Source: Byssochlamys sp. IMV 00236
Taxonomy: Eukaryota; Ascomycota; Eurotiomycetes; Eurotiales; Thermoascaceae
Direction of reading: 5' to 3'
Assembly (NCBI GenBank): GCA_001931875.2
Contig: MSJH02000642.1
Span: forward strand, 62,001 to 126,000
DNA: 64,000 nucleotides
Part shown: positions 6,457 to 54,612 of the stretch, one piece after another
Numbering within the stretch: the first letter of the stretch is position 1
Layout of the letters: every line of letters starts with the position of its first letter
The notes under the pieces: model-generated
What the model saw: the letters and a program-made list of their open reading frames with translations, nothing else
Told to the model about the DNA's origin: nothing
Databases searched by the model: none
Translations under genes and position numbers: made by a program

Positions 6457-6502
6457 CTAAAGTTAACGCGTTATTTAACACACAATTATTTAAACAACCA
6501 CT

Positions 6503-8030: not shown

Positions 8031-8142
8031 AGATTATAAAAGAACTATATGTTCTACATGCTTAGATAATTAATTTTAAATGAAATACACATTATTTAGT
8101 TGTTAAAAATAGCTTTAAGTTTCTTAGGCGTAGCTGAATTTA

Positions 8143-8193
8143 GTAGAATAGGCGGTTGACCTGTGGTAACTAGCTAACCCGTGATTTATATTA
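8143..8193 (-). repeat. Right terminal inverted repeat of the Fot1-like element
   Basis: This is the reverse complement of 6406-6456, with transition-type differences. It defines the right end of the transposon. Confidence 0.85.
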
Positions 8194-30479: not shown

Positions 30480-31303
30480 GTTGTAAAATTTTGTGGCTCT
30501 GGCGGATCTTCAGCATTTTGCTTATTAATTATTAATCTTAGAGATTGCATGTTTATAATAAGTTAGTAGGAATTATTTATTCTTGAACGGCAGCGACTCT
30601 AACGCTTAGAGATTATTACTGCTCATTAATTAGCAATATCTAGAATAATATTTTCTAAACCGATAAGGTAAACCCCACTATGTAGCATCTCAAACTCAGC
30701 GCTTATTAGCCTTTCTTTTTGGAGCTTATTTATTATATTGAGGATTTTATCCGGCCACTCCTGCATTTTTTCTTATTTTAGGGTTCTAATTATGGCATTA
30801 AACAGTTCCGGTTTTAATTCTGTCTAAACTTTTATAGGGTAACTAATTGATAACGCAATAATATTATCCGGATACTTGTCGCATAAGCACTAGATAATAT
30901 TAATTCTATTAGCAATTGTACTTATTAAATGTTTTGTATTTTTGCTACTATATTTTGTTTCCTTTATCGGCCCAAAGATTAGTCTGAAGTTTGCTTTTAT
31001 AGTCTGTGAAGAATCCAGCTATTTAGTGTCTAGTATCTTTCTTTTTTATGAGTCTGCTTATACCTCCAGTTTGTAGATTTTGTTTTGTAGGCGTTTGTAA
31101 CACTTAGCAGCGGCTAATTAAGTGTTATGTTGGATCTTGTTTATAGCTTTAACTATTTTCAACCCTTATATAGAAATTTTATCAGCCTGAGCTAATGTAA
31201 GGTTTGGTGATTTTGTAAGGTGCACAGATATTATTTTAAATCTGCTTGCTTAATCTTTTAAGGCTGATATAGTGTAGGTATTGAGAATATTTCTTGCTGC
31301 CAT
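30480..31303 (-). pseudogene. Unidentified fossil gene with long readable frame
   Basis: From an ATG at 31,303 on the minus strand, about 270 codons read in a single frame down to about 30,480. The stops are TAA/TAG at plausible former Gln positions. Readable pieces include 'MAARNILNTYTISAL', 'HLTKSPNLTLAQADKISI', 'ANFRLIFGPIKETKYSSK' and 'DPPEPQNFTTGIYY'. The predicted product is hydrophilic and Lys/Asn/Ile-rich, with no membrane segment. I do not recognise it. It lies about 1.3 kb from the kinase relic on the same strand. Confidence 0.5.
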
Positions 31304-32589
31304 TGTGGGGAATATTAGCTTTGTAGAAAATGAGATATTGAACTTAGGAAATTTAAGGGTTTAAAATTAGTGTCTAAGGATTAATGCGGTATAAATAGGA
31401 CTTGTTAGTAATTTCTAGAGCCTAAATTCTCTATAGATGCTTAATTTTTGTTTTTAGGAAGCCAATAGTAGACCTAGATAGGATTGGGTAGAGCTAACTA
31501 TTTAGTTAACCTAGTTAGTAAACCCCTTTCGCAGCTCTCTGTATCTAGACTGTGCTATTGTATTATATTCTCAGGCGGTATATGCGCGATATAAGGGGTA
31601 TCTTGTTTAAGCTCAGGCTGCTAGCAAAAGCGGCTCTAGGAGAAGATAGGATTATTATAGGTGGTTAGTTATATGGGCTTTTTTATTAGCCTTTTATTGA
31701 AAAAAGGTGCTATAAATCTATTAAACAGCCTTGCGCTAATATATGTAGCTTACACTAGCTTTGGATAAATATAAGGCGCTAAATATTTTGTACTTTTTTT
31801 ATTGGTGAAAAGATATACTTATAATAGGAGTCTTATACTATATTCCTCTTAATCTAGTGTGTTGGACGCGCTTAGGCCTTATTAACAGCTCTGAGTGACA
31901 TAGTTCCCCTTATTAGACTTATATGCATGCCGCTAAAGCCAGCATAAGGGAACTTATATAATCTAGTTATAATACTTATCTCTCAGGCTATAAATATGTT
32001 TTAAACTTCTAATCTCTACAGTTTATATCTATAGAGCATTATTGTGTATTACCCCTCTACCTTTCAAGAACCCCTAAACCCATTATTTAAAATTGCTAAG
32101 GTAAATTATCTAACTGCTAAACTATCAGTAATCACTTATATTTTTAATCTAGAATGTGTTAAGTTAATATTGCGACTAAGATTTATATATGTGGTTGCAG
32201 AGTTAAAGAAGATATAAACTTTATGCCTTATAAAGATATTGGCACCCCTAAGTGCCCTAATTATATTCTCAACCCACTAGCCTTATATAGAGAGAGGGGG
32301 AAATGTAAGAGATATAACTGCCCGAATCTATAATCGACCAGCTCTAAGACTAGCCTTAAAATTCCAGCTTATAATGCTAGAGAGGTTTATGAGAAGGGGG
32401 TGGTGGATAGTAAGTATATGTAGAGGGTTGATATCTCTTCTCGAAGGGGTATTAAAGGGGCATTATAATACTCTAGTTTAGATAGCATTTTCTTTAGTTT
32501 AGTATAACTAAGTACTTCGCGAATTTATTAAAATTTATATTATTCTTTTTGCCGCACTAGAGTCTTAAATTACAAAAACTGGTCTGCAA
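31304..32589. other. AT-rich degraded DNA, no gene seen
   Basis: Broken AT-rich sequence between two minus-strand relics. Nothing recognisable was found in either strand. Confidence 0.5.
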
Positions 32590-33351
32590 TAAGTATACTC
32601 AAATTAGAGTATTCTCCTTTCCAGCATTATTATATCACAATACCGGCTTCCAGTCTATTAATTGGTGGGTATCTTTTGGAGGTAAACAGATTGTTAACTA
32701 GTTCTTAGTATTTCTCCATTTCCTCCAGAGACTTGAATAGACCTGGAGACTAGTAGGGCCAATGGCCAGTTATTATTGTATAGTAAATAGACCCGAGGCT
32801 GAAAATATCTGTGCTTTTTATTGATTCTAGTGGATTGTAAGGATTAAAAAATCCAGTATTGGGCAAATGTCGACTATCTATTTCTCTATTTGTTGACCCC
32901 CCGAAGTTATAAAGTAGAAGATCGAGCTTATTTCTGGCGACTGTGTGCAATAAAAAGTTCTTAGGTCGAAGATCAGAGTATATCACACCTTTTTAATAAA
33001 TGAATTGGACCGCCTCTGCGGCTTATGTGTGCTATTTGAATTGTAGCGATATATTAATGCTAGTATAGTGCTAGTTAATGTAGTTCTGTAGATTTCTATC
33101 GCTTGCTTTGGTAAATAATAATCTAAATAGGTTGTCTGAGACGCCCTTAAACCTAAAAAAAGTTAATCACTGTTCACAAGAAATTAGGGGCTTATGGACT
33201 CTATTATTCTTGGATGTAATCCTAGGATTTGTAGAAGTTATTCTTCTACCTCAAAACTCTGCTTTATGTCTCGAATAAACTACTTATCCGTTGCTGTCTT
33301 TGAATGCCACTAAGAGAATTGTAGATATTTAATGATGATGCCTGGCGCCAT
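32590..33351 (-). pseudogene. Fungal protein kinase relic
   Basis: Starting at an ATG at 33,351 (minus), the frame reads 'MAPGIIIKYLQFS', 'DIKQSFEVEE' and 'LLQILGLHPRIIE', as in N-lobes of a Eurotiales kinase family. After a frame change near 33,150 it gives 'RNLQNYIN', 'AAEAVQFIY' and the catalytic loop 'GVIYSDLRPKNFLLH' where HSDLRPENFLL is expected, so the His has become Tyr. Then come 'LDLLLYNFGGST' (DFG-like with Asp changed to Asn), 'STDIFSLGSIYYTIITGHWPY' (read in two parts) and 'FTSKRYPPINRLEAGIVI'. The changes at HRD-like and DFG positions are G-to-A or C-to-T, so the kinase would be dead even where frames are open. It is about 240-250 codons long, a compact domain-only kinase. Confidence 0.8.
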
Positions 33352-34883
33352 GTGTGCAATACAGGAAGTTGAGCCTTTACCTAAAATATCGCCAAGAAGA
33401 GGCTTATATGGGACCGAGTCTTTGTTTTTAATGCCTATAGCACCTGGGCATTCTATGATTAATGTTGTGTGTGTATTAACCGCCGTATCTAGATGTTACT
33501 TCCTATTGAGAGGGCCTTTATAGTACTTAATATTACCTGGCTTCTTATAGTTTGGGAGATAAACTTTAAAGAGCGAAGGTACTTTGAAGAGAATAAGATA
33601 ATACAGATAATATTGCAGAGCTGAGAAAAAGCTAAAACTGTGATTCTAAATGCTTATTAATATTTTAGAGATGTGCTAGAAGGGAGTCTTGTTAAAGAAA
33701 GGAGACTAGTTTAAAGCCAACTGGCCTGGCGCAAGGTGTCTTGTAAATTGCTCAAATAATGGAATAATAATAATCTATTATATGCAGAGACTAACTGTTG
33801 ATTGTAAGAGGTATTAGACCTTTTCTTTGTCTAAAAATCACATTAAATTATAAAGGCTTTAGGCCTAATTGGCCAGCAAAGGGTAGCTTAGTAGTAATAT
33901 TAATAGCCTACTAGCTTTAGGTGCAGGGGTAGAGGCCCTATTATTTTTGACCACTCTTTATAGTATTACCCACTATCCTAAGGCACCCGCAGGTCTACTT
34001 GTATTCCCAATCTAGTGAGTCTGTCTATTGTTTGCACAGCTTATGTGCAGTATTAATAAAATGGCTAGTAAAAAAATTATGCTTCTGAGCATCGCTAAGA
34101 TCAAAGTATTAACTAATATTCTCAGCGACTCTAGCTGATCGGTTAAGGTTATCTAAGTAAGAGAGCGCTTCGCGGTTAAAGTAGATACATCTATTGCGCC
34201 GTTAGAAATAGAGAATATAAAGTTTATAGCTGCTAACAGCAACGTCCCTATTATTATTATTGTATAAAGGATAATTATTGCTTATAAATAATATTTTTAT
34301 TATAAATAGTTTAGAATATTAATAATATCCTCTTTCCTGTAAAGCATTAATCTATTTGCTTGCTATGCGTTGTACTCCGATATACCTAGATTGCCCTTTA
34401 GCTCCTTCTTAGGAGATTGCTCCAAAAATAACTTTATTAACTCCGCCTAAGACCACTCCTTATATTTTGCTATTGCGTGCACTTCCCCGAGCATCCTTAG
34501 ACCTTTATTCTACCTTATAGTATATACAATTGCCTTAGGGATAGATAAGCGGGGTTGCTTGTTTAGATCCTACTGTATAGGTAAATAGTTTAATATATAA
34601 TATGGTAAAGCACCTTAAAATAGTTAAGAGAGGGTTCTAGTTAGTAAGGTGTCTTTGCAGTAATTAATTGTTAAAATGCTAAAGCGCTGAAGCGTCAGGA
34701 AGTGGCGCTTTAATATATCCCACACTTCAGCATACCCCGTGAATGCCAGTTATTTCTACTAAGGACACCCTAATCCAAAAATTAAGACTGCTAATAAGAC
34801 TTATCTTCCTCTAGATGGCGCCTCTCTTTTTAAACTATTTATCTATCTTAAAATCTAATATGCCTTTTTATATTTATGCTTAG
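33352..34883. other. AT-rich degraded DNA, no gene seen
   Basis: No recognisable gene. The short open frame at 33,332-33,523 (plus) overlaps the start of the kinase relic on the other strand and is treated as chance. Confidence 0.5.
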
Positions 34884-35830
34884 TTGTATTTGATCTCAGC
34901 CAGTAAATCCGCCGCACAATCACTAAATATACTCTTTAGCTTAACGGCTAGACGCCCTAGATTTATCTACCCAACGCCACTGATTGCTCTGCCTCCTGAA
35001 CTACTTATAAAGATTTTTAGCTATTTAGGAAATCTGGACTATCTTTTTTTTATAATACTTACCTGCCGATGTTTCTTCAATATCTTTTAAGGAGTATAAC
35101 AGCTGTTAATTTAGTCGACTTTTGCTAAATATATCCATTTGAAGTCCCGCTATAATATCTACAAGGGGCTAATATAGCTCAGATAGGTTATCCAGCGACC
35201 AATTATATACCAAGATATTGCATAACATATCTTCGAAATTATATAGAGAGTTTTTAGATGCAATTATCTAAAGGAGCTGCTTATTCCTTTTGGAAAAGCC
35301 TTAGCATGGTCTTTTGTCTTGCACAATTATGAGCTTAATATAGTCAGCTTTCTACGACTGATTCTAAGAGGATTGCAACCCTTTAAGTAGTTAATAGAAA
35401 GATTATTATAGCGCCCGATTTAACCTATCCAGGAGCTATTAGAATAGCTTCTTTCAGAATATAATAAAGATAATAATTAGCATAGATATGCGGGCTTTAA
35501 CTTTCTTCTACTCGAAATTTGTAGATCTAAATAGAACCCCTTATGTATTATACTTCTATATGATGTCGAGCGGGACACTGTTTTTAAGGACGGAATATTA
35601 TTTAGGGATTAGTTAATTATAGTAAGGTATAGCGTACCTTATCCGCGAATGAGATATAGATTCCTATTATGCAATTTGAGCTTTTATATAAAATTAGCCC
35701 CTGATTAGTATAGAAGTTTCTGTTTATCGACCCTAAGGTGTCCATACACTGCTCTAGTAGAGTGATCTTTGTATTGAACAGGAGCCGGTTGAAAATAAGT
35801 AGGATTGAGAAATTTATTAACTCTCTTACT
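34884..35830 (+). pseudogene. F-box protein relic
   Basis: At about 34,970-35,080 the plus frame reads 'LIALPPELLIKIFSYLGNLD', then 'LFFIILTCRCFFNIF'. This is a clear F-box start (LP.ELL.KI..YL) as in fungal F-box proteins that recruit substrates to SCF ubiquitin ligases. Downstream frames continue to about 35,830 ('LLIPFGKALAWSFVLHNYEL', 'DVERDTVFKDGILFRD', 'YSVPYPRMRYRFLLCNLSFY') with TAG/TAA stops. The target-binding part is not assignable. The relic is about 310 codons long and non-functional. Confidence 0.65.
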
Positions 35831-37549
35831 ATTAGTAGCTTGTATTAAAATTACTAGACAATTTAATAAATACATTTTCATATTTTATATAGAAGGGTAA
35901 ATCATAACTGCTGATTTTGAGAATGGCTTAACTTTTAATGACCCTTCAGTACCCTAAGCCCCTTCTGGGGAAATCTGGACCTATCTGCTAAATCTTAAAT
36001 TTTTAGGCTAATAATATCCTTTTTAATGCTAAGGCCAAATCTTTTTAATCTATATTGCGGTATCTAGATTTATTGTTTCTAGTACAATATATACAATATT
36101 AAACTAAAAGAGTAGTTAAGTAAAACTAGCAGCACTGTCTTATAGACTCTTAGGTCTAATCGCGAAGTTAAAAATAGGCAATTAGATCTTGCAGTCTCAG
36201 GCAATAAATTTATATAAGATATTTATCGCTTTTATTTGTTTTCAAAAAACCAATTAAAATTAATCTTTAATATTTTATAATAAGATTATTGATAAGCAGG
36301 AGCCTCTAGCAGTAAAACCTAGTAAACTAGATAAACTTTTACTAGATAGACAGATAATACTACTCTTATAAGGGCCGCTAAGTATATAAAAGATACAATT
36401 ATATAATAATGCGCAGATAGCTGTTCTTAAATATTTATTATAGGAATAGGTTTATTATAGTTAATATACTGCGCTGCTATATTATACAGTAGGATTATAA
36501 GGTTGCGGGCAGGGGTATAGATATAAAAGTATATAGAAATAGGAGGTTTTAGGGGTAATAGATAGTCTATTATATATTATTGCTTAATTTGCTAGGTATT
36601 ATAGATTATACTTTATATTACTCTGGCAGGTCATTATCTAAGATATTTTTAAGATTATGACTTGCCTCCTAAGCTTTTAGCCACTTAATCAACCTTTTTA
36701 GGGGGCCGGGTTAGTCCAGAAAAACTCTGTGGAAATTCTAGATCTTATATAGAGTATGCTTAAACCTATGTGCTAGATACTAGGTCAGATTAGTATTATA
36801 TCCTTTCTACTAAGCCTAATATTGCAGCTTTCCTTTATAGATTTATAACACTAAGATTTGCTCTATTTCCTATTCTCCTTTATTAATAGGGTTAAGTGTA
36901 ACTATTATATGAATATTATTTTTTAAATAAAATCTTCTCTTCTTAGATCTTTAAACATATTTCAACCTATATATAGGTAAAGGGACTGTTAGGCGGCGCG
37001 GCTCACTATTAAGTGGGAACTAAAATTATAGTGCGTTGAGCCTATAATATGAATTTAGCTTAAAAGAGAAAAAGTATATAGTCCCTAATATATAAGGCTT
37101 AATAATAAGGACAGCATTCCCAAAAATATTTTGACTATAGTAAGGCTTTGCTAATTGCGCAGATACTAAGCTATATAATAACTTTCCTAAAGGTCTATAA
37201 GATGTATAGTTGGCTATTTTACCTATAGATTATAGGGCATATTTATATCTCTTTATAAGATATAGGCCCTCTTTATAGCTAGACTAGTCGGTCTAGTAAT
37301 TATATTAAGCAATATTTTAATAATTACAGTATTATAGGTTTCTATATTTAAAAATCTATATTTAAGCAATTTTAAAGGACTTTTACTAAGGCGGCTTTAT
37401 AATTTTGGGATATTCCCTATTATAGGTAACTGCTGCTATATAATAAGGAGGTATTAGACTAATCTAATAAACTAATGCTTATGTGTGCTCTGCTGAATAG
37501 GAAATATCTGTTTATAGGTAGAGTTAGCTGTCAGGAATAGAGTTAACTA
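35831..37549. other. AT-rich degraded DNA up to the composition boundary
   Basis: No recognisable gene. AT-rich, TA-dense sequence continues to about 37,540 and then changes abruptly to ordinary composition inside the transposase remnant. Confidence 0.5.
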
Positions 37550-38409
37550 CCGCAACTGAGGGCGGTTGTTCACCGTTTAGAAGTGGCACCCAAGAATGTG
37601 ACGTCGAATACGAAGCGGCATTTTACGACGAATAGCGAGTATCAACAATTTTTACAATCATGGAACCGGCTCATCTATTCCAGTACAGAAGAGGATTACA
37701 ATACAGGGTTATCAGAATTTGAGAAGCGATACCAAGCCTCCCCTTCCCTTCGGTATGTTAAGGAAACATGGCTAATCCGTAAAGAAAAATTCATAGTTGC
37801 ATGGACACAACAATATCTACACCTGGGTAATTCTGCGACTTCCCGCGTTGAAGGCTCACATGCCTTTTTAAAAAAGCATATCGGTGCTTCAACAGGGGAT
37901 ATGTTGATTGTATTTGAAAGGATTTCACAAGCTTTGCAAGCCCAACATACTACACTTCAACATGATTTCGCAAGAGATCAAATTGAGAGACCAGTAGTAT
38001 CGCTGCATCCGTTTTATACTAATATCGCGACGAGGACCTCTCGATATTCGATACGACTGATCAGTGAGCAGGTTACGAAGGCTAAAAGGGCCACGAAAAT
38101 AGCTCCTTTACCTCCTTGTACCAATACATTCACAAGGACCATGGGTCTTCCTTTGCTACTTTATTGGGGGCCAATAAGGCTGTCCCACTGACTGATATCC
38201 ACCCATTCTGGCGAACTGGCCTTTCTGAAATGGAACCGGAATATCTTCCACTCTTAGAGCCTTTGATTCCTTTGCCAAAGCCTAAGAAACGGAAGTGGGA
38301 TCAATTGGAGCAGAACGACGACGGTGAAGCCCTCAAAAGGCAGAGAAAGGCACCTTTCAAATGCACTGCATGCGGTGAAGTTGGGCATACACGACGGTCT
38401 TGTAAATAA
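37550..38409 (+). pseudogene. Mutator-like (MULE) transposase C-terminal remnant
   Basis: A frame open from 37,547 gives 'KNVTSNTKRHFTT', 'WNRLIYSSTEEDYN', 'KFIVAWTQQYLHLGN' and 'SATSRVEGSHAFLKKHIG', as in the second half of fungal MULE transposases. 'CTNTFTRTMGLP' at about 38,120-38,150 should lead into the C-x-H half of a SWIM zinc finger. Instead the frame shifts, and the other frame (38,116-38,409) resumes with 'FATLLGANKAVPLTDIHPFW'. It ends with a zinc knuckle 'CTACGEVGHTRRSC' and stop 38,407-38,409. A small deletion near 38,152 therefore removed the finger's C-x-H and broke the frame. The N-terminal half is missing. Unlike the DNA to its left, this piece has no RIP-type stops. Confidence 0.75.
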
Positions 38410-38737
38410 TGGGAAGAATAACAGTATTTCAAATACAATCACATGATCAATTTCCTTACCTAATCACGAATATTACAAAACTAGGGGTGGCCCGAGTAAA
38501 GTCGGGGGTGTCCCTATCAATTTCCCAAATGGAGGGGTGCTGACGTAATTTGGGCACCCGGGTGCCTATGTACCAGTCGCCAGCCTTGCGGGCATCTTCA
38601 TGTGTCATCATCGCCATAGCCATGAGCTTTGCATCATTGTGTGGCATGACGAGATGAAGATGCTCGGGTTTGGAGTGAATGAAGGGAAACCAGAGTTTGT
38701 GATGCAAGATAGCAGCTCTTAGTCCAATGGAAAACTC
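38410..38737. other. Spacer between MULE remnant and UvrA-like gene
   Basis: About 330 bp without a convincing gene. It should hold the 3' end of the UvrA-like transcript, which runs leftwards. A minus-strand open frame of 83 codons (38,456-38,707) has no recognisable domain. Confidence 0.5.
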
Positions 38738-41332
38738 CTACCCTATATATGTCTTTTCTGTCCTTTTTCTCTTTTTCCTGTTACCGCCCGCTTTTGAAGG
38801 TGCCTTGAGAAGCCGAGCGATGTAGGGTGCGGTACGGCTTTCCTTGCTCGCGGCTACTTGTTCCGGAGTGCCTGTAACGGCGACCCGGCCGCCATTTTGG
38901 CCTGCGCCAGGCCCCATATCGATGACCCAGTCAGCGCAGGCAATGACACACATGTCATGTTCAACCACCACAACGCTGGAACCTGAATTCACCAGCCGGT
39001 TGAGTTGCAGCAACAGCATCTCTACATCAGCAGGATGCAACCCCGTTGTGGGTTCATCCAGGACATAGAGGGTGTTGGCACGGCCGATGCGGCCAAGCTC
39101 CGTCGCCAACTTGATACGTTGAGCCTCACCACCAGACAGCTCGGTGGCAGATTGGCCAAGGCGTAGGTAACCCAAGCCCACCTCGCGCAGTGCTGATAGA
39201 GGCCTGACAATACTCGGCTCGTCGATGAAAAACTCGTGGGCTGCATCAACCGTGAGGTTCAGAATGTCGGCAATATGGTGCTGGCGATATTTGACTTGGA
39301 GGGTTTTTGGGCTGTAGCGCAAGCCCTTGCAAGCTGAGCACGGCGCATAAACACTGGGCAAAAACAACAGTTCCACCATCACCGAGCCCTCCCCTTGGCA
39401 CACTTCACAGCGCCCTTTGGCGACGTTGAACGAAAACTGGCCGGCATCCATGCGGCTTGCGCGCGCCTTGGGCGTCTTTGCAAACAATTTACGCACTGGA
39501 TCGAAGAGCCCCGTGTAGGTTGCGAGGTTCGAGCGTGGGGTGCGGCCAATGGGCTTTTGATCAACACAAACAACCCGCTTCACATGTTCCATTCCAGAGG
39601 CTATATGACCGCCGAGAGTTGCTGTAGGCACATGCTCTAGATCCCCCTGGTCGTCCTCTTCGACACTGGGAGCTTGACCAAGAGCCTGCAATACTAGTTC
39701 CACAAGGGTCTGACTGATGAGTGTCGATTTGCCGGAACCCGACACACCCGTAACACATAGAAGAACACCCATGGGAATGTCAACGTCTAAACTCTGCAGA
39801 TTGTTGCGTGTGATAGCACGTAACTTGAGCCACGCTGCAGGTTGCCGCCGGGACCTGCTCACGGAGACTTTATGGCCAAACACATAACGCCGCGTCTGGG
39901 ATGCCTCGACATTATCGAGACCTGATGGTGGCCCTGAATACAGTACCTGTCCGCCAAGAGTCCCAGCCTTGGGACCCACATCAACAATCCAATCTGCATG
40001 ATCGATTACGTCAACCTCGTGCTCGACAACGAACAAAGAGTTCCCGGCTTCCTTCAGGCCATCCAGCGCACGGAGTAGAGCTTCTGTGTCTGAGGGATGC
40101 AAGCCTGCTGATGGTTCGTCAAGGACGTAGACAACACCGAATAAGTTCGACCGTAGCTGCGTAGCCAGGCGCAAACGCTGTAGCTCGCCGGGCGAGAGAG
40201 TAGGAGTGCTGCGCTCGAGTGACAAATAGCCCAGACCCAAGTCGAGCAAGACATCGAGGCGGCCCACAAGGTCCTCGGCAATGCGTAGGATGACGAGTGC
40301 ATGTTCGGCGGGAATGTCGAGCTGCTCATTGATTTTGGGATTGGGCTTGGCAAATGGCACAAATGTGTTGCGTAGATCTGCTAATGACAGCGTCTGCATC
40401 TCGGCAATGTCACGCCCGTCAAACGTGACCGACAACGACTCTGGACGCAACCGCTTACCGCTACAAGCAGTGCACTCTCCGTTCACCATATAACGGGAGA
40501 CACGCTTTTTCATGAGCGCACTCTGCGTCTGTGCGAAGGTCGTCAGTACATATTTGCGGGCGCTGGAGAAATTGCCAAGATAACTTGGATCTTCTTTCTT
40601 CTTAATTGCGCGTCGAACTTCAACGGCGTCAAGTCCAGCGTATACAGGGACGACCGGAGTCTCATCTGTAAAGAGAATCCACTGCCGTGTTTCCTCGGGC
40701 AACTTGTGCCACGGAACATCGACGTCGTGGCCCAGCGTGACCAGCATATCGCGCAGGTTCTGTCCATGCCAAGCAGGCGGCCAGGCCGCAACAGCTCGCT
40801 CCCGGATGGTTAGGGACGGATCTGGCACCATCGATTGCTCAGTTACAGTATACGCTCGGCCCAGTCCGTGGCAGCCAGGACATGCGCCCTCGGGCGTATT
40901 CGGCGAGAAGGCCTCCGCAGGAAGAAGTTCTTGTCCTTTGGGGTAGGTGCCGGCCCGCGAGTAAAGCATGCGTAACAAATTGGCGATCGTGGTTACACTA
41001 CCAATGGAGGAGCGTGTGGTCGGCGCACCGCGCTGCTGCTGCAATGCCACGGCCGGAGGTAGTCCCTCGACCAAATCGACCTCAGGCACCGCCATTTGGT
41101 TGAAAAGCCGCCGGGCATAAGGGGAGACAGACTCTAGGTAACGCCGCTGCGCCTCCGCATACAGCGTCCCGAAGGCCAGAGAGGACTTGCCAGAGCCAGA
41201 GACGCCGGTGAACACCACGAGCTTGTTCCGAGGGATGTCGACATCCACATTCTTCAAATTATTCTCTCGGGCGCCTCGAACGCGCACCACATCGGGTATA
41301 TGACCATGCGGCACCGGAGACTTGGGATGCAT
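38738..41332 (-). CDS. UvrA-like double ABC ATPase of bacterial type
   Basis: A single intronless frame of 864 residues. The N-terminal ABC half has Walker [10 protein letters not shown] (43-51), a zinc-finger pair CPGC (151-154)...CTAC (287-290), signature [12 protein letters not shown] (379-390) and Walker [13 protein letters not shown] (402-413). The C-terminal half has Walker [10 protein letters not shown] (529-537), a zinc finger CEVC (642-645)...CSAC (665-668), signature [12 protein letters not shown] (732-743) and Walker [13 protein letters not shown] (756-767). This is UvrA, the DNA-damage sensor of bacterial excision repair. Its length, below the usual 940 or so, fits class II UvrA-like proteins, which lack the UvrB-binding region and include drug-resistance proteins such as DrrC. 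Fungi have no UvrB/UvrC pathway, so the gene is probably of bacterial origin. The C-terminus ends in a basic [10 protein letters not shown] stretch (851-860) that could be a nuclear signal. ATG 41,332 is the only good start. Confidence 0.93.
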
Positions 41333-41615
41333 CGCGCGTTAGGCCAGGCCAGGCTGTTGTTGTTGTTGCTGTTGTGTATGTGGCTCTGAATTGTTGTTGA
41401 CAGGGCATCTCTTTAACAAGTGGGTGTGGAAGTCTGAGTCTATGATTCATTGGTGAGTACGCGACATTACATAAGCCAACCATCTACCAAAGGGTGGTTC
41501 AAGCTCTGATCGAAGTCCAATTTATGTTCAATCATTTCCTCTTCCACATTGAACTTGTTTCAAATCTTGCAAGTAGTATTTCACCAGGGCCGCATCTAAG
41601 AGCTACTTTCACTAG
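41333..41615. promoter_or_regulatory. Divergent spacer between UvrA-like and G-alpha genes
   Basis: About 280 bp separate the starts of two divergently oriented genes. It contains a short TGT/TGC microsatellite at about 41,353-41,377 just upstream of the UvrA-like ATG. No TATA box is convincing. Confidence 0.35.
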
Positions 41616-42860
41616 ATGCATTTACATATATCAATGATGAAGCTACAGAACAACTTTCTTGGCTCATTATGCTTCAAGACAGACCGATCGAGTCATTACT
41701 TCTCACAGGAAAATACCCGGATTGAAAAGATCATAAAATTGGAAAAAGTCAAGATGAGAAAACGAATCAAAACACTCTTGCTGGGTATGAATGGACATCA
41801 ACAATTACAACAAGTTATCGCTGACCGAGGGAACAAGGCGCTGGTGAATCGGGAAAGTCAACCATTGTCAAGCAAATGCGCATCATCTACCTGAAAGGAT
41901 TTTCAGAAGATGAGCGCCACCATACTCGGACGATTATATTAGCAAATTTGCTCGATGGGTTTAAAATATTGCTGGATATCATGGTCAAAGAACGACTAGA
42001 CTTCGGCAGTGAAACTGCTAAGGTAGCGTTCTCAAATATTCGATTCGGCACTGTTGTCACTGCTGACATATTTCATCCTGTTCTAGGAATCTGCCGACTC
42101 GCTCTTAATAAAAGAATCTGGGTTTTATGATCAATCCATCTTCACTGAAATGCAATCTTTGTGGCAGGATCCTGGGGTGAGAGTAGCGGTTTCGATGAGC
42201 AGCAACCTTCCTTTTCATGACAATATGCTTTAGTGAGTACGAGAATGTCATTGGCTGTATGAGAAATGGTTTGACAAGTGAAAGCTTTAACAATTCCATT
42301 GATCGCATTTCTGCGCCCGAATGGATTCCCAGCGACCAGGATATCTCAGGGTGCGACTCAGGACTACTGGTATTTCCGAGGTATTATTTGACATGGGCCG
42401 TATAACTTGGTCTATGATTGACGTGGGTGGACAACGTTCAGAGCGCAAGAAATGGATTCATTGCTTCGAAGATGTCGATTGTCTGATATTCGTAGCCGCT
42501 CTCTCCGGTTACGATCAATGTCTGGTCGAAGACCACAATGCGGTATGTCTGGGTCATTAAAGTTTTCTACACGGATACATTAACACCGACTAGAACCAAA
42601 TGCAAGAAGCAATGGCGCTTTTCGACTCTATTATAAATGGCCGATGGTTCAGAAAACAACCTGTCATCCTCTTTCTCAACAAATTTGATTTGTTCCGAGA
42701 CAAGATTGCTGCGTCATCAATATCTGCCCATTTCCCCGGCATCAACTGCTCAGAAACAGATGCCTTTTCAGCTGCGTCAAGACGTTACAATGAAAATTGG
42801 GCGGCTCAATTCAAACTGAAAAGATCAAAAGCAAAAGTCCGAGCTGAGTGTAGAGTTTGA
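41616..42860 (+). pseudogene. Heterotrimeric G-protein alpha subunit, decayed
   Basis: Exons carry clear G-alpha motifs: P-loop GAGESGKST; switch I 'RVRLRTTG'; switch II '[17 protein letters not shown]'; '[10 protein letters not shown]'; and NKxD as 'LFLNKFDLF'. Likely introns are 41,785-41,837, 42,023-42,086, about 42,177-42,237 (donor uncertain) and 42,543-42,593. All are GT...AG and about 50-64 nt. At about 42,343 ('gatatctcagg') one base is missing, so 'WIPSDQDI' and '[12 protein letters not shown]' lie in different frames. The reading frame ends at 42,860 before the TCAT guanine-binding loop and the C-terminal receptor-contact helix. The N-terminus also lacks the usual MGC lipidation start. 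It is therefore probably a pseudogene. A sequencing error could explain the single frameshift but not the missing C-terminus. In family members, G-alpha subunits couple receptors to cAMP or MAPK signalling. Confidence 0.75.
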
Positions 42861-43920
42861 GATAATATGCTGGGCAGTAGCATGCGACTTTGATTACTGA
42901 GTAACCTCTTCTCCTTGCTTTCTATTCTCAAAGTCAGCAGATACGTTTGCGTTGTTGAAATCCCATCCCTGTCATTGTTAGCCTACGCTGACTGCCAGTT
43001 CACTGCTAACCCACGCTCACTGCTAGCCTACGCGACCGGGTTGGAAGCCAGCAAAAGTGGCATTAATGACTGCCTCTAAGAATATGACCTCACGGATTTT
43101 TAAGGCCAACAAAATCAGGCCAAAATTTATGACAAGACCAATACAGCGTTCGTATTTAAGGCCGCATTTTCTGGGCTTGGACTTGTATGGGAACCTTGTG
43201 TTCAACAGGGTGGTCAAACAGTGGGTCACCATTTTTACCGCTACTATTACAAGGGTTAACCAGCGGGTCAGTATTGCAGTCTCTTTGTTATTGGAGGGCC
43301 TCCTGTTCAAATCCCGTGGTTTTGCACAGGAAATTTAGTTCTCAAATAGTTCAGCAAAGTTGAGCATCCGTCGCCGAGGGGTACGCCATTTTCTTGGGTG
43401 GTGTAGGGATATCATCTCATTTTCTCTGCTTACTATACGATTACTGCTGCATCAAGAAGCTCGGAGGCTGCCGGCGGCCCAACCCAAGATGTCTGCTATC
43501 ACTTCGTTAAAGCATGTCACATAAGCAAGTCTAAAAATATAAATCAATAAAGGATATTAAGAAGATTCTTTTCTTCTACCACGTAAGCACTCAGTCTGCC
43601 AGGAGAAACTAGCTCACTCATTCCATTCATTTTCGAGTAGCCATTTCATTACCAGGATGACAGCGAGCGATAAGTTGAACTTCTATTTTGCATTCCTCCC
43701 CCTCTCCCAAATACAGGTACCGTAGTCTTATGTTCAACAAGCCCCCATAAGAAAGCATTGATGATGTTAAGCTCTCCTCAGAATAATACGTTCACGTAAG
43801 AGAATAAGTCTCATGTTTGAACAATGATGTGGTTCAAGGCGAGGACCAGGTAAGGTGATGTCGTAAAACAGGCAAGCATCTCAAAGATAAAACGGCCTCA
43901 AAGCTCTTTAGTGGACGACA
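42861..43920. other. Intergenic DNA with short repeats, no gene
   Basis: About 1 kb without a convincing gene. Three imperfect copies of a 17-bp word (consensus tgctagcctacgctgac) lie at 42,976-42,992, 43,004-43,020 and 43,021-43,037. A sequence matching an RNA polymerase III B-box (gttcaaatcc) lies near 43,308, with an A-box-like word about 95 bp upstream. The two open frames near 43,023-43,338, one on each strand, have no recognisable domain. Confidence 0.45.
42976..43037. repeat. Imperfect 17-bp repeats
   Basis: Words at 42,976, 43,004 and 43,021 share 't-g-[ct]-ta-[ga]-cc-[tc]-acgc'. The second and third are adjacent; the first is 11 bp upstream. They may be the edge of a small repetitive element. 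Confidence 0.5.
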
Positions 43921-44211
43921 ATGACCCTCATTCAAGATCAAAATCTAGAAGCCCGACCAATTATAGCACTTTTCACCATGTCTCGGAAATCCTCATGGGT
44001 GAAGAAACGTCGCTCTGAAACTAGAGTGGCAATATCACAGCAGCAGATTAGACGGAAGAAGACCATGTTCAAGGGGGCGGCGGAATATAGCCTTGAATGC
44101 AAGGCTGATACCTTGGTGGCCATCCGGATCAGAGAAACAGGCGAGACCTTTATATTTGACTCTTCCACCGGGGGAAGATGGCTTGGTACCTTGTCAAGAT
44201 TAGTGGGTTAG
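43921..44211 (+). CDS. Small MADS-box-like (SRF-type) protein
   Basis: A 96-codon frame. The better start may be the second Met at 43,978 (MSRKSSWVKKRRSETRVA), giving 77 residues. The core has a basic first part followed by 'IRRKKTMFKGAAEYSLECKA', 'DTLVAIRIRETGETFIFDSS'. This follows the MADS layout of a basic helix (..RR..T.FK.A.E.S..C.A) and then two beta strands (D..V.I.I...G..F.F). Fungal genomes carry short MADS-like proteins of this kind. The domain normally binds CArG-like DNA as a dimer. No further domain is present and no intron is needed. A degraded copy of the 3' half lies 575 bp downstream. It may be a fragment rather than an active regulator. Confidence 0.55.
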   Translation: MTLIQDQNLEARPIIALFTMSRKSSWVKKRRSETRVAISQQQIRRKKTMFKGAAEYSLECKADTLVAIRIRETGETFIFDSSTGGRWLGTLSRLVG

Positions 44212-45305
44212 ACTAGAGATCTGTCAGGTCATCTTGCTGACTGTGACAGGATGAATGTTACCCTCGTCCAATCCGACTGACTATGGAAGATATTTTCCCG
44301 GGTGTCCAAATAAATCAAGGATAGACCTGATGGCGCCAAGGCACGATATTTTTGTCAGCCAAAGGTTTCTTCGAGAGTTTGGACGAAGTAGATGGAAATT
44401 CGAAGCCTCGACGTATTAAGAAGGTTCGGCGCAACTAGAACTATTCTTTTTGGTTATATACCATATGTTTCTGATTTCGTTGTTATGGCTTGAGTATAAT
44501 CAGATAAATTATTAGTGAGACTAGAATATCAGCGATCGCCGAGAAAGACTTGTTTACTGTGCATCTGAAAAGTATATAAAGCTAGCTATCCTGATAGATA
44601 TCAACAAAAGGATCTATTAGGCAAGATCTGCGAGAATTCTTCGCTGAAGTTTACCGGTTCTACAATACTAGTGCTTTTAGCGAACCGCTCATAGGGTCTG
44701 GCAGTCTCGCCGCGGGTTACATCTTTGATTCTTCTACTTCAAGAAAATGGCTTAGGACCTTATTAAGATTAGCAGGTTGCATGAAGACCTGCTAGTTAGT
44801 TAAGTTAGTTTACTGGATCACCTGGCTGACGTGACAGGACGCGTGCTACCCTCGTCTAATCTTAGAAGCTTGGAAACGCCATTGGCAGTAAGGGCGCTTC
44901 AGCGCTTCAGCGTGACGTTAGCTGTGAGCCAACCAGACATGCGGAAGCTGAAACTGGTGCAACCAATGGACGTCCGTTTTTTAGAGAACTTTATTCTCGG
45001 ACCGTACAAGAGACGCCACACTGTCCACGTTCGCGCATGTCCACGTTCGCGCTAATGTCCTCCAAGATTGACTTGATTTTTCCTTTACAGAGCTGGGATC
45101 CCTCATCTAGACTATTTCTTGCTTTTAAGAGGACGGACAGCACGGAGCACTCAGCCAGCAAGGTCCAGGTCCTTGAGTTCGTCCTCGATCGCATTCTCTG
45201 CTTGGTAATCAACCGTTGAGTTTGCGGGCCTGTTACTAGCCCGCTCGACGTCGCTGGCGGAATCGACAACACCTCTCTTGTTCAGCAAAACATCATGTTT
45301 GAATA
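44212..45305. other. Intergenic DNA containing a decayed duplication
   Basis: No intact gene. It includes a diverged duplicate of the 3' end of the MADS-like gene, listed separately. The remainder up to 45,305 shows no recognisable structure; it is likely the promoter region of the following gene. Confidence 0.45.
44712..44870 (+). pseudogene. Decayed duplicate of the MADS-like gene 3' end
   Basis: This segment matches about 44,140-44,285 at an offset near 575 bp. Both contain 'tttgactcttcc'-like sequence, 'aagatggcttgg/aaaatggcttag', 'tcaagattag', 'gctgac...tgacagga' and 'taccctcgtc[ct]aat'. The copy reads 'FDSSTSRKWLRTLLRLAG' against 'FDSSTGGRWLGTLSRLVG' in the upstream gene. Similarity is lost upstream of this point, so only the 3' end is recognisable. 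Confidence 0.65.
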
Positions 45306-46159
45306 ATGGAGATTTCACAACTTTTGAATAACACGGACGCCGGGCCTACGGCGTCAATCAGCCCTCTCGAGCCAGAGCCTCATACCGCAAACTCACATGG
45401 CAACAACAACCAGCGACATCTTGCGACGAGTTCCTTATCCCGCATCCCTCAATCATCGCCATTAGGAGCAGGCGCTCATTCTAGGATACTCCAAGAACCA
45501 GCCAAAGGGTGGTCGGGCCCATGCTTGCTTCATCCGCCCTATGGAACTTCACGCGTCAAGGACAAGAACCCTTTTAGTCCCGCAGAGGATGCTGCTATGA
45601 TATACTTGCTTGAAAACCTTGGTGTCTCCCGGCGATACCTTCTTAGCGCTATATTTGGTCGTACTCATGGAAACATAAATATTCGACGTGATGAATTATA
45701 CGACTACAGGTACTGCAGGGGTTGTCCATCGTGCCACATGGTTATGCAGCGGCTTTTCAACATAAAACAGCAGTAAGTCAGAAGCTATCTCCTTCAATGA
45801 GCGCTGGTCTGACTCGAGATATAAGGTATCAAGGAGCGCGCTGGACAATCAGCCAAGAGCTTTCTAATGGAAAAGTCGACGTCCTAGTCCCGCCACCACG
45901 GCGGATCCGTAGCTTTGAGAATTTTCCACTACCTGTTATTGCGAGGGTCCGTGGTAGATCTAGAAAGATTTCCCTGTCCGTCTCTTCTGGTGGTTTGTCT
46001 GTTCAATGGGATCAGAGGACATTATTAAGAAGTAGCTCCGACCATTACCATATTTTCCATTCTCGGCCTTTACGCCGTACTGGAAGCTGGATGCTACGCC
46101 TCGACACGCAAGACGAATGTGATTTTTCTGCTGGCTTTGAAATCTCATGCGTGGATTAA
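45306..46159 (+). CDS. Two-exon protein of unknown function
   Basis: Exon 1 is 45,306-45,772 and exon 2 is 45,826-46,159. The intron, 45,773-45,825 (GTAAGT...TAAG, 53 nt, branch-like CTGAC), joins them in phase 2, giving 266 residues and removing the stop that ends the first frame. The first 90 residues are Ser/Pro/Asn-rich and look disordered. Residues about 95-150 (NPFSPAEDAAMIYLLENLGV, then 'FGRTHGNINIRRDELYDYRYC') have a spacing like a Myb/SANT-type helical domain. A Cys pair follows (CRGCPSC). The exon 2 part is basic. I do not recognise the protein. The clean splice join argues that it is real. Confidence 0.55.
45773..45825 (+). other. Intron in the 45.3-kb gene
   Basis: Donor GTAAGT and acceptor AAG, 53 nt. 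Removing it keeps the reading frame open across both exons. Confidence 0.6.
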
Positions 46160-46442
46160 ATTAAACTCGTACGTTGCAGTTCAGAGAGTGCAGAGTTGGT
46201 CCCGTGAGAAAGAGAACACTAAGTACAGAGTCACTTCAACTTCAGTTTTATCGGGTTCGGCCAAGCACAATGAACAAATCGGAGCCCCTGTGTGAGCCCA
46301 GCAATCCTGTGCTCGGATCAGCGGACAACTTCGCCACATGTCACTCAACCATGGATCCTGCCTGGAGCTCTGTTGCTTTAAAAGAGCACTGCTCGTCATC
46401 CACTTCATTCAATCTACGTGATTCATTAAAGTGCTGCCGATC

Positions 46443-48098
46443 ATGGAGCGACCTGCAGCCTCCAGCGCCAAGGACTTCGTCCTCTGCTTCGACGGCACAG
46501 GATACAAATTCCGCGGAAACGACACAGATAGCAACGTGTTGAAGATATACAGAGTAAGCAGTCCTTCACTACCATTTTACCGTTAAACTGTACAGATACC
46601 CTACGGCTAACACGGCTAGATGCTCGACCGTAACAAACCTTCCCAACACCACTACTACCAACCGGGCTTCGGAACCTACACGACCGTCTGGCAAATCTAC
46701 GAAGCGCACAAGAACTGGCTTAAACGCTGGTTTCTAAACACCCGAGACGCAGCCATGGGCACGACCTTCGACGAACACGTCATGGACGGCTATCGATACC
46801 TCATGCGCTTCTACTGCCCCGGAGATAATATCTATATTTTTGGTTTCAGCCGCGGGGCATATGTCGCGCGGATCCTGGCCGAAATGATCGATCACATCGG
46901 CCTCCTCGAGGCCGGGAATGAGGGGAAAGTGCGCTACGTGTGGAATATATTCAGCCAGTGGGCGAACCAGAGTAACAGCGTCGACGTAGAGCAGGCCGAG
47001 AAGGACAGGCTGTATCAGTTTATGACAGCGCTGCGGGAGACATTCTGCCGCCCTGTCTCGCAGATACGGTTCCTGGGCTTGTTTGATACCGTGAATAGTA
47101 TTCCGCGGTTCGAGGTGAACCGAAATAAATTTCTGTTTCCTTATACGGCCAGGACGTCGGCGAGGGTTATTAGGCATGCTGTTGCGATTGATGAGCATCG
47201 TACGAAGTTCCGGGAGGATCTGCTGTCGGATTCGAATCCGAATACCAGTGAGAAGGGGAGGAAGAAGAGGATTGCTCCTGTGCAGGGAGGTGACCGACAG
47301 CTTCTGCAGGGCCATAACTCTGGGGAGGCGTTCTATCGGCCTTCTCGTCGGCAGACTTCGGACTCTGGTGACATGACGCTTACAGGGTCGAGGTCTTCAT
47401 ATGACGACGGTGAAGATGCAACCTTCGATCAGGATATTGAGGAGGTGTGGTTCGCTGGCTGCCACACTGATATTGGCGGCGGACGCAAAGTAGACGACGA
47501 TGAAGAGTACGCACTGAGCCAAGTGCCGTTGGTATGGATGGTGAATGAAGCGCAGGATGCAGGACTGCGGTTCGACCCTGAGAAGAAGAAGCTATTCCGC
47601 TGTTTCGTCGATCCAGGCGACAGTTGTCTTGCACACAGTAGTGAGAAAGTAACGGACAATCAACAAGAGACGGATGAAATATCACAGTTCAAGTCGGCTC
47701 TCTGGCGAGCAGCTACCACCAGCCGTATACATGACTTTCTCCGGTACCGCCAGGGCGTGCCGTGGTCTACTGTTCTATCCTGGAAGATAGTCGAGTATCT
47801 CCCCCTTCGCAGGATGGGATTGCAGGAGGATGGATCGTGGAGAGTTATTCGATGGCCTTTGCCTCTTGGGGAGAGACGCGGTGTCCCTAAGGACGCCAAA
47901 ATTCATTATTCAGCTATTCGCCGCATGCAAGGCAATACGGATTACAGACCGGATAATCTAATCCGCGGGAAAAGAGGGAAGAAGAAGTGCCCTAAGGAAT
48001 ATGGGATAGGGGAATGGGAGGTGTATTCTCATCACGGCTGTCCGATTCGAGAGACATATCGGAAGATGCCTGACACGATAGTACCTACTGGGGTTTGA
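46443..48098 (+). CDS. DUF2235 (Tle1-like) alpha/beta-hydrolase
   Basis: Exon 1 is 46,443-46,553 (37 codons) and exon 2 is 46,620-48,098. The 66-nt intron 46,554-46,619 (GTAAGC...CTAG, branch GGCTAAC) joins them in phase 0 to give 529 residues. The N-terminus 'DFVLCFDGTG' (about 11-20) is the typical first strand of DUF2235. The nucleophile elbow GFSRGA is at about 112-117, 'LFDTVNS' at 191-197, and the late motif 'CHTDIGGG' at 318-325. The family includes bacterial type VI secretion phospholipases (Tle1) and many fungal proteins of unknown substrate. No signal peptide is visible, so the protein is probably cytosolic. Residues about 210-265 form a basic, Ser-rich insert that may be disordered. 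All expected motifs are intact. Confidence 0.88.
46554..46619 (+). other. Intron in the DUF2235 gene
   Basis: GTAAGC donor, TAG acceptor, 66 nt, phase 0. It links the FDGT-containing first exon to the main frame. Confidence 0.8.
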
Positions 48099-48422
48099 CC
48101 AGGCAAGCGAGTGGCATACAGCTAGGAAAAGTACTGTCTCGGTATTCACACCTGCAAACCATTCTTGGACTGTCCATTCTCTATACTTCCATTGTACAGA
48201 TATAATTCCACTCTTTCCCTTTCTTCGCAAGAACCTACTTCAGCCACAGAGCTAGAATCCTAAAAAGGAGCAAAGGAAGGATTACGTCCAACCAGTTGCA
48301 ATAACCTATAGTATAACTAGTATCCATGGTTCCCGGTATCGCTCTCCGGACTGCCATAAAATTTCATCATACTCTAATATTCATCTAAAAACCCGGCGAG
48401 ATCGCTCTCTTCAAATCGGACG

Positions 48423-48821
48423 TCAGTGACAGCCATGATGACCCTGACTCCACTGACTATACTGCGTCCAGACCAGTAGACCCGCACAAATGATTGCGCG
48501 CCGAATATTCCCATGGCTGAAGCCTTCAAGCGCGATGCTAGCGGACAGGGTCAAGACAGAAACGGCCAAAAAGAAGAAGCGTAGCTTTTGCACGCCAACT
48601 GCGGAGACGGAACCAGCAAAAATGAAGTTAAGTATCGTCTGCCAATGGCCAGAATACAGGAGAAGTGTGTACAAGTGTGAATGGAGCATACGGGTAGCCA
48701 GCAACACGAACTGGACAATAAAGCGAATCCTTCGGGGAGCATTGTTGAAATCAACCGATGGGCGCGCCCAGAGAGACCGTGACCGGGCGATTTCTCCGTA
48801 GGAACTGAACAATCGTGACAC
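48423..48821 (-). CDS. Possible small membrane protein
   Basis: A 132-codon minus-strand frame. It has three hydrophobic stretches (around residues 33-58, 63-77 and 83-98, with another near 108-118) after a basic N-terminus with several Arg. I recognise no family. An overlapping frame on the same strand has a similar length, so this one is not privileged by openness alone. The hydrophobic pattern is the only support. Confidence 0.25.
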   Translation of the reverse strand: MSRLFSSYGEIARSRSLWARPSVDFNNAPRRIRFIVQFVLLATRMLHSHLYTLLLYSGHWQTILNFIFAGSVSAVGVQKLRFFFLAVSVLTLSASIALEGFSHGNIRRAIICAGLLVWTQYSQWSQGHHGCH

Positions 48822-49011
48822 GGCATTCTGGATGATTCCTCGAGAGGAGATGATGATGATAACTCAGCCATACTGGCAAGTGTCCAATTCTGTTCTTATA
48901 TGGCTATTTGGGCTCGCAAAAAATGCGCCATTTTCGCCTTTAAAATAAGTTACCCGGAGTAATCCTATATCTAGCTTTTATTCTTTTTTGTGATATCATG
49001 GTTGAGTCCGT

Positions 49012-49059
49012 CAACGATATCGGAATCTTCGATGGACTTCGGAGGTTACGATATCGTTG
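49012..49059. repeat. Inverted repeat around CAACGATATCG
   Basis: 'caacgatatcg' at about 49,012 pairs with 'cgatatcgttg' ending near 49,058. This perfect 11-bp stem encloses about 26 bp, within the LTR-like segment. Confidence 0.7.
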
Positions 49060-49146
49060 GGATCCACCATCGGGTAGTTCGATTACCGATAGCTAGGTTC
49101 AATTATATATAGGAAGCTTAGATAGCCATAGTTAGGACAAGAAGAA

Positions 49147-49184
49147 CGCCGGGAGTGAGCCTTCGGGCTGCACTCCGGCATTTC
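49147..49184. repeat. GC-rich hairpin with TTCG loop
   Basis: 'gccgggagtgagcc' and 'ggctgcactccggc' pair with one bulge on each side around a TTCG tetraloop. The hairpin is GC-rich in an otherwise AT-rich setting, so it may matter as RNA structure in an LTR transcript. A rho-independent-type terminator is not expected in a fungal nuclear gene. Confidence 0.7.
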
Positions 49185-50110
49185 GACGACCTCGATATTT
49201 ACCGAACCTCGGGATGTTATCACATTTTAATATCTAGATTCTGTCTATCTAACCTATCTTGTTTTAATAGTAAGTTTTATATATTCTATATATGGCTTTT
49301 ATCTATTAAAATAAAGCTCTAATTAGATTAGCTCTTGAAAGCTAATATTTTTAATTATAAGATTAATTCAAATATCTCTAGTAAATTTTAGTTCTATATT
49401 TCTGTAAGACCCTCCGCAAGACAGCCTGGGTATCCGCGAAAGGTAGAGCTGAGTAAGCTGGAAGCTGACTCAGCTTGCGAGGAAACCTCTTTACTTCGCG
49501 CAGGGCATAGCATTAGAACTCCAGCGTTAATCTATTAACTATCCTGAATCCTTGAAATCTAAGTCTCATGACTCTTTATTCTCTTTATTAGGTGTATTAC
49601 ACTCTTTTACACTATTCGCAACAACCCCAAAGGCCAAGGACCTTATAATTTCTATTAATCTATAAAAGATAGTTAGATATAAGATCCTAAAATTATCCTT
49701 TTCTTATTTTAATATTTATATTATAATCTATAAGAGTTATAAAAGGCTATATAATATTTTTTTTTATTATATAAAAAAATAATAAGCTACTTATTATTTC
49801 CGAAGGTACATGGAGGAGAATTCCGGAGCTCTTGACAGCGTGGATCAGCTGGAGGAAAGAAAGACAAGCAGTAGGGACGCGGAGATCAGCATTGTATGAT
49901 GTGCAGAGGGCTGGGTGTAGGAAGGTGACGCCAAAATGGGCAACTACCTGATTGGGAAGAGACGACATTACGTCATTTGCCCCTCGTAACTAACCCGATT
50001 TAATGCGAAAACGCCTCTCCAACCGCCCATCGATCTTCTTGATATCCGTGCCGTTGTCAGTAAATTGGGGGGCTCATCGTTCTTCATGCTGCGACACGAA
50101 CGGGTTCACA

Positions 50111-53100: not shown

Positions 53101-53139
53101 GATGAGGATGCGGTTCCTGAGTGGCTGATGTCGGATTGA
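50111..53139 (+). CDS. rad4: Rad4/XPC nucleotide-excision-repair protein
   Basis: Four exons: 50,111-50,671, 50,723-50,926, 50,976-51,321 and 51,371-53,139. The introns are 49-51 nt with GT...AG ends and compatible phases, giving about 959 residues. Exon 3 carries the transglutaminase-like fold ('GSRDFGAQLFCALLRSVSVE', 'ARLVCSLQPLPF'), continued in exon 4 ('CPVFWVEAFNEAFQKWIVID', 'VIAFEGNASVRDVTRRY'). Next come the three beta-hairpin domains: BHD1 'NHPVYALERHLRRNEVIFPK', BHD2 with 'GEIALYAYFQTELYQPP', and BHD3 'IRHLDAAYAARVLGIDYADA', 'VTGFNFKGRHGTAI'. Rad4/XPC with Rad23 finds helix-distorting lesions and starts excision repair in the nucleus. The first 180 residues are basic and acidic, probably disordered; the last 220 or so are acidic and Ser-rich. 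An upstream in-frame ATG (about 50,023) is possible, but 50,111 has the better context (cacaATG). Confidence 0.9.
50672..50722 (+). other. Rad4 intron 1
   Basis: GTGCGT...TGTAG, 51 nt, phase 0. It joins 'CCDEAVQ' to 'TLLREMLP'. Confidence 0.8.
50927..50975 (+). other. Rad4 intron 2
   Basis: GTATTA...ATAG, 49 nt, phase 0. It joins 'LRRKT' to 'ESIMSDTEVF'. Confidence 0.7.
51322..51370 (+). other. Rad4 intron 3
   Basis: GTATGT...CCAG, 49 nt, phase 1. It joins 'YNTFPA' to 'SIPSESSCPVFW', inside the transglutaminase-like region. Confidence 0.8.
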
Positions 53140-53870: not shown

Positions 53871-53871
53871 G

Positions 53872-54411: not shown

Positions 54412-54612
54412 AGATATTGGTGCCAGCCTAATCTCCGACTGCCTTCGCTTCCTCCCAAGTCTTGACTCTTGAGACTCTTCACTACTGTCTTACTTTCACA
54501 TTTGAGCAAACCTTAAATAGCACTGAATAACGATTTTTTTTGAACACAGCACCTAGCTACCGCAAACCCATTCCATCACCATCTGCCAAGTCGCCACCAT
54601 GCAACGCCACCA

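Follow-up and report, generated by a model that had tools for sequence, protein, structure and literature searches.

A bacterial-type class II uvrA among the surviving cargo of a RIP-killed Starship in a fungal genome

Bacterial uvrA on fungal Starships is already known. The Starship Prometheus was described in Paecilomyces variotii IMV00236 by Urquhart, Gluck-Thaler and Vogan (2024) as a RIP-mutated element with an un-mutated ssf region (PMC11623301). The same work reports that uvrA was acquired from bacteria and is cargo of the Starships Prometheus, Mithridate and Typhon, that fungal uvrA is restricted to ssf-bearing fungi, Phaeoacremonium apart, and that Prometheus is inferred to come from A. 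sydowii or a close relative (PMC11623301). Deletion of the whole ssf cluster was reported to leave the fungus about as sensitive as deletion of ssfB alone, and the formaldehyde resistance work used Chrysaor, which is not one of the Starships listed with uvrA (PMC11623301), so that ssf seems to give resistance without uvrA.

Among the bacterial relatives, UvrA2 of Deinococcus radiodurans neither replaced UvrA1 nor altered UvrABC incision in vitro, and a minor role for it in damage tolerance is cited in the same report (PMC8837605). Ecm16, which belongs with DrrC to the drug-resistance proteins of class II architecture, protects E. coli without UvrA, UvrB, UvrC or UvrD and requires its ATPase to do so (PMC10192343). 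Formaldehyde sensitivity is reported for uvrA mutants of bacteria and for rad4 mutants of yeast, the latter under an acute dose and not especially under a chronic one (PMC11424613). In a Penicillium strain the families of UvrA, S-(hydroxymethyl)glutathione dehydrogenase, disulfide oxidoreductase, integrase and PKS were found expanded (PMC10759354), a set that looks like the Starship cargo described here.

The window analysed here is a stretch of 64,000 nucleotides that corresponds to positions 62001-126000 of a 271,780 bp contig (C640) in an assembly of 47,425,162 bp and 840 contigs. At 47.4 Mb this assembly exceeds the ~30 Mb of P. variotii, AT-rich DNA and contamination being the candidate causes of the excess. 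The host is most likely Paecilomyces variotii IMV 00236, isolated from a wall of Chernobyl unit 4, whose published assembly has 843 contigs and 47,573,060 bp (PMC5391430), close to the present figures but not identical, and which was first published as Cladosporium cladosporioides and later renamed (PMC10055108). No 5.8S rRNA that could have served for an ITS barcode was found in the assembly. A word search of the main text of the proteome study on this strain gave no occurrence of 'Uvr' (PMC6529585). The window lies wholly inside a mobile element with the following parts:

C640:~55,995-134,869 (window -6005 to 72869), no strand: derelict Starship of ~78.9 kb with terminal inverted repeats, captain and cargo; window 1..64000 wholly internal
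C640:57482-58856, outside the window, ~1.5 kb inside the left end: captain remnant, DUF3435 tyrosine recombinase
1..37500, no strand: RIP-mutated tract, 42.9 kb in all, GC 0.325, composite RIP index +0.37
37500..64000, on to ~69000, no strand: un-RIPed cargo island, ~31 kb, GC 0.481, composite RIP index -0.50

Along the contig, host DNA of 49% GC is followed by an AT-rich tract (18-21% GC) that is broken sharply at ~C640:56.0 kb and resumes at ~135 kb. At these ends lie terminal inverted repeats in which 31 of 38 positions match (C640:55,995-56,032 and 134,832-134,869), and their score of 24 compares with a best of 15 in 500 shuffles, the choice of ends having been made with the GC steps and a common 8-mer already known. 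Near each end there is one copy of TTAAGGA, which might be a 7-base target duplication; as evidence it is weak, since this heptamer is found 13 times in the 27 kb AT-rich tract. That tract (C640:134900-162000) is host DNA of 18% GC with an extreme RIP signature and forms the insertion target of the Starship. Three pieces of the captain survive within RIP-mutated DNA, interrupted by 14, 9 and 5 stops in frame (28 in all), and among the best candidates scored DUF3435 matches were found only at this left end of the Starship; no second copy of the left end, the expected partner for RIP, was found in the assembly. Only three open frames of at least 100 aa start in the 42.9 kb of RIPed DNA, against 56 over the six frames of the cargo island at C640 99.5-131 kb. 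With a DUF3435 captain near one end, defined termini with inverted repeats, and cargo, the element is a Starship that was killed by RIP and whose unique cargo was spared. We take the name Prometheus from the description for IMV 00236, and the AT-rich target agrees with it (PMC11623301); the RIPed element with an un-mutated ssf region and the bacterial uvrA cargo are likewise common to both. At the edge of the RIPed tract (window 37547-38409) there are two short open frames, the first of which has no Pfam match and the second of which ends in a CCHC zinc-knuckle-like motif, possibly a nested transposon remnant.

Inside the cargo island, close to its boundary with the RIPed DNA, lies the gene under study:

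38738..41332, minus strand: uvrA, class II (UvrA2 type), 864 codons and 864 aa, intact intronless single exon
40502..40834, minus strand: UvrA DNA-binding (insertion) domain PF17755, residues 167-277, by Pfam
38762..38779, minus strand: RKKRKR C-terminal basic cluster, candidate nuclear localisation signal, residues 852-857

An earlier note, made from the sequence of the window, had described here an intronless, full-length bacterial-type UvrA of a size that fits class II, with all four Walker motifs, both signature motifs and zinc cysteine pairs intact, and this description was confirmed. The gene (C640:100738-103332) begins with ATG and runs through 864 aa with no internal stop. Its product scores 869.5 bits against the NCBIfam model uvra TIGR00630 (cut-off 729.8) and carries the insertion domain for DNA binding (UvrA_DNA-bind, E 4.8e-11). 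The best solved match, D. radiodurans UvrA2 (2VF7, 1229 bits), aligns end to end, so that no exon is missing; the two are colinear over residues 3-841, lack the same UvrB-binding domain and have the same motifs, whereas the fungal protein differs in its host and in its basic C-terminal tail. The best class I UvrA, 3ZQJ, that of Mycobacterium tuberculosis, scores 706 bits, below the 1229 bits of 2VF7, and the UvrB-binding segment of ~150 residues that it spans at 139-289 is absent from the query, where residues 129 to 137 stand opposite it. Ecm16 (7SH1), a resistance protein, has the class II architecture in common and acts without UvrB and UvrC, but its similarity is far weaker at 466 bits (PMC10192343 identifies 2VF7 as UvrA2 and 7SH1 as Ecm16).

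Motifs read directly from the product place Walker A at residues 43 and 529, the signatures LSPGE at 379 and LSGGE at 732, and Walker B at 403 and 757, which makes two ABC ATPase units each with Walker A, signature and Walker B. CxxC pairs stand at 151, 287, 642 and 665, and these four pairs correspond to two zinc modules, not three: zinc module 1 is absent together with the UvrB-binding domain, and modules 2 and 3 are kept. Judged by these features, the predicted protein is confirmed as a class II UvrA of UvrA2 type. In an alignment with 96 relatives (79 prokaryote-genome loci and 17 database proteins) it keeps 311 of the 314 near-invariant columns defined on those relatives (99.0%; leave-one-out control over the rows, median 99.7%, minimum 97.5%), the three departures being valine to isoleucine at 110 and 690 and glycine to alanine at 752. 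A cluster of at least five K/R in six residues within the last 25 residues was found in 2 of the 97 aligned proteins, this one included, and the RKKRKR tail may be read as a putative nuclear signal.

A FastTree tree of 97 rows, built with 79 of the 80 prokaryote loci (L084, whose frame ends after 394 aa, was dropped) and 17 of the 120 listed proteins, nests the fungal UvrA among bacterial class II sequences. It shares a starred set of six rows with one MAG each of Bacteriovoracaceae, Oligoflexus and Chitinophagaceae and with two database proteins; its sister grouping with the Oligoflexus MAG is uncertain, with support 89 and no star, and its end branch is 0.48 compared with a median of 0.11. 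The donor cannot be named because the end branch is long and the sister grouping weak and unstarred. Among UvrA2-type proteins of bacteria, the 119 others listed are 69-72% identical to the fungal protein, and the 80 loci 63-71% over the best segment. A protein that matches it at all residues but one (299) is known from a 30.5 kb ENA contig and belongs to a cluster of 35 members. Codon use decides nothing, since uvrA and its bacterial relatives both fall within the range of ten host frames. Taken on its sequence and its place in the tree, the gene is class II and appears to be of bacterial origin.

In the whole assembly uvrA is the sole PF17755 match found by profile search, and there are no matches for UvrB (PF12344) or UvrC (PF08459), each of which is matched in 12 of 14 control genomes. 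The expectation that this fungus lacks UvrB and UvrC was therefore sustained, and the pair that would make UvrABC excision repair available in the same genome was not found.

The cargo that follows uvrA is, in order, of G-alpha-like, Tle1-like, Rad4/XPC, asparaginase II, ssfF, ssfD, cupin, ssfC, ssfB and ssfA types, with these genes beyond the G-alpha-like stretch:

46620..48098, plus strand: Tle1-like alpha/beta hydrolase cargo gene in the un-RIPed island (PF09994, DUF2235; E 4.4e-76)
50111..53139, plus strand: extra Rad4/XPC gene, exons 50111-50671, 50723-50926, 50976-51321 and 51371-53139, GT-AG introns
54616..55740, minus strand: L-asparaginase II gene, two exon pieces
56760..57482, plus strand: ssfF-like, S-(hydroxymethyl)glutathione synthase/Gfa (TIGR02820, E 1.5e-87, over the cut-off)
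57675..59164, minus strand: ssfD-like, S-formylglutathione hydrolase, several exons (TIGR02821, E 1.8e-49, exon piece, below the cut-off)
60698..61315, minus strand: cupin-domain gene inside the ssf block, from the domain scan; could be ssfX
62487..63113, plus strand: ssfC-like, glutathione-independent formaldehyde dehydrogenase-type ADH exon (TIGR02819, E 2.4e-22, below the cut-off)
L012:17-1312, outside the window, minus strand: ssfB-like, named by its relatives
L012:2744-3448, outside the window, plus strand: ssfA-like (TIGR02818, E 3.2e-101, exon piece, below the cut-off)

Five ssf types (F, D, C, B and A) thus lie within ~11 kb, where three or more ssf genes inside 25 kb are taken to define an ssf cluster. 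The types were assigned by family models or by the names of relatives and not against the published ssf sequences, and those of ssfD, ssfC and ssfA were scored on single exon pieces with cut-offs meant for whole proteins; ssfE and ssfX, the other two of the seven ssf genes, went unrecognised at the locus. For the ssfB-type protein, a 'disulfide oxidoreductase' of Penicillium rubens shows 92% identity, and the relatives from A. flavus and Paecilomyces variotii No. 5 show 88% and 83%; Trichoderma and Fusarium relatives stand lower in the match list. Published ssfB is a disulfide oxidoreductase, and ssf clusters are named in groups that match these relatives (PMC11623301). An esterase-family gene elsewhere in the assembly (C539:72502-73268) scores like the ssfD-like gene and is probably its host paralogue. 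The other strand carries, immediately upstream of uvrA, a G-alpha subunit-like stretch (window 41706-42773) with 12 in-frame stops, perhaps a pseudogene or several exons; the assembly holds 31 G-alpha matches.

The extra Rad4/XPC gene, which is separated from uvrA by ~9 kb, stays open over 959 aa in its four-exon model and shares 67.7% of 954 positions with the Rad4 of Aspergillus varians. It is one of three BHD_3 (Rad4 family) loci in the genome, of which C654 is the host Rad4 (97.9% identical to that of P. variotii over 616 aa) and C709 a distant paralogue that reaches no more than 33% identity with any Rad4 protein in the comparison. In a tree of 34 rows using 32 of the 120 listed proteins, the cargo copy is one of 17 rows in a starred clade (99), the others being 12 Aspergillus species and four database proteins, while two Paecilomyces species are grouped with the host's own copy (100). 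A eukaryotic lesion sensor has therefore also been transferred on this Starship, and the Aspergillus type of the cargo copy fits the inferred origin of Prometheus from A. sydowii or a close relative. The words Rad4 and XPC are absent from the main text of PMC11623301, the supplement being outside the search. No work pairing 'Starships' with 'Rad4' was found in the open literature searched, subscription papers and supplements being outside that search, and the pairing of a bacterial uvrA with a cargo Rad4 on one Starship seems to be new. The Starship setting, the adjoining ssf-type genes, the extra Rad4 and the published fungal uvrA had all been missed in the earlier note.

That the gene is a bacterial contaminant or a misassembly we hold to be next to negligible in probability, even with the oversized assembly and the strain's first publication under a wrong species name on its side. 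The stretch around uvrA is free of gaps and runs from RIPed DNA across the gene to a fungal gene that has introns; gaps in the contig occur only at C640:34447-34466 and 69341-69373, and no N run touches uvrA. Eukaryotic genes occupy the contig flanks, SPB1 among them, for which the best PDB matches bear that same name. A contaminating bacterium is also at odds with a single UvrA match and the missing UvrB and UvrC, with the near-identical protein from the 30.5 kb ENA contig, and with the publication of uvrA in several fungi (PMC11623301). As to a mixture of two genomes, SPB1 is present as one full-length copy with two weak relatives at 39% and 34%, a result that does not exclude contamination elsewhere in the assembly. 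Self-protection against a DNA-binding drug, as by DrrC or Ecm16 in antibiotic producers, had been called plausible in the earlier note, which pointed to DrrC. In its favour are the common class II architecture and Ecm16 working without UvrB (PMC10192343), and it gains something from the Penicillium strain in which PKS expanded together with UvrA, their linkage being unstated (PMC10759354). We consider it improbable, as the closest solved relative is UvrA2 and not Ecm16 by the bit scores above, and no drug cluster was seen near uvrA: none of the 19 ORF pieces scanned holds a PKS or NRPS domain or another biosynthetic gene, the RIPed 43 kb being unreadable for such genes.

Weightier is the reading of uvrA as an idle passenger, intact through recent arrival and through RIP sparing single-copy cargo, which falls somewhat short of probable and yet is nearly as likely as a lesion-binding role. 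The element is derelict, with a captain broken by 28 stops, and against 43 kb of RIP-mutated DNA the whole island has open frames, whatever their role; moreover, ssf works on a Starship that is not listed with uvrA (Chrysaor, PMC11623301). It follows that the earlier note went too far in taking the intact frame to mean that the gene had been kept under selection, because the gene rides a recently moving element and escaped RIP. Two observations pull away from an idle uvrA, namely its repeated association with ssf in several Starships (PMC11623301) and the near-invariant columns kept on a branch of 0.48, which argue for constraint along that long branch, though not necessarily in the present host. 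The explanation that we set beside the idle passenger, and regard as evenly poised between right and wrong, is that uvrA is Starship cargo which, along with ssf and Rad4, would act as a UvrB/C-independent lesion sensor in the nucleus.

For the lesion sensor, a Starship would have picked up a bacterial class II uvrA as cargo, and Prometheus would have brought it with the ssf genes and the Aspergillus-type Rad4/XPC into the host fungus, where RIP later immobilised the element and spared the unique cargo island. The UvrA product would enter the nucleus by its C-terminal basic tail and bind distorted DNA as an ATP-driven dimer. Working without UvrB and UvrC, it could clear adducts or peptides or else mark lesions for excision by the host Rad4-TFIIH, and the element would so both detoxify formaldehyde and deal with whatever DNA damage still arises. 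Since uvrA and rad4 mutants are formaldehyde sensitive, Ecm16 is free of UvrB and UvrC, and UvrA2 is inert in incision, a UvrB/C-independent lesion binder is the most economical model, under which the benefit of UvrA would come under formaldehyde or other adduct stress. Against it weigh the failure of D. radiodurans UvrA2 to replace UvrA1 (PMC8837605), the Chrysaor work, in which loss of ssfB explains most of the resistance that disappears with ssf (PMC11623301), the ~9 kb between Rad4 and uvrA, and the recognition of only five of the seven ssf types.

Even with an idle uvrA, the locus is a clear example of a RIP-killed Starship with surviving cargo. We also entertain, as a rather unlikely extension, that the Starship may be a complete formaldehyde-survival kit in which detoxifying enzymes are joined by two damage sensors from separate domains of life, a bacterial UvrA2 and an Aspergillus Rad4/XPC, that together feed formaldehyde-induced adducts and crosslinks into fungal excision. 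If this were true, nucleotide excision repair would have an entry of mixed bacterial and eukaryotic make that a transposon spreads, and fungal mobile elements would carry detoxification together with the matching DNA repair between orders. A bacterial lesion sensor would then operate in eukaryotic chromatin without its bacterial partners. That would account for the company uvrA keeps with ssf in fungi, and an easy eukaryote would become available in which to test what class II UvrA does.
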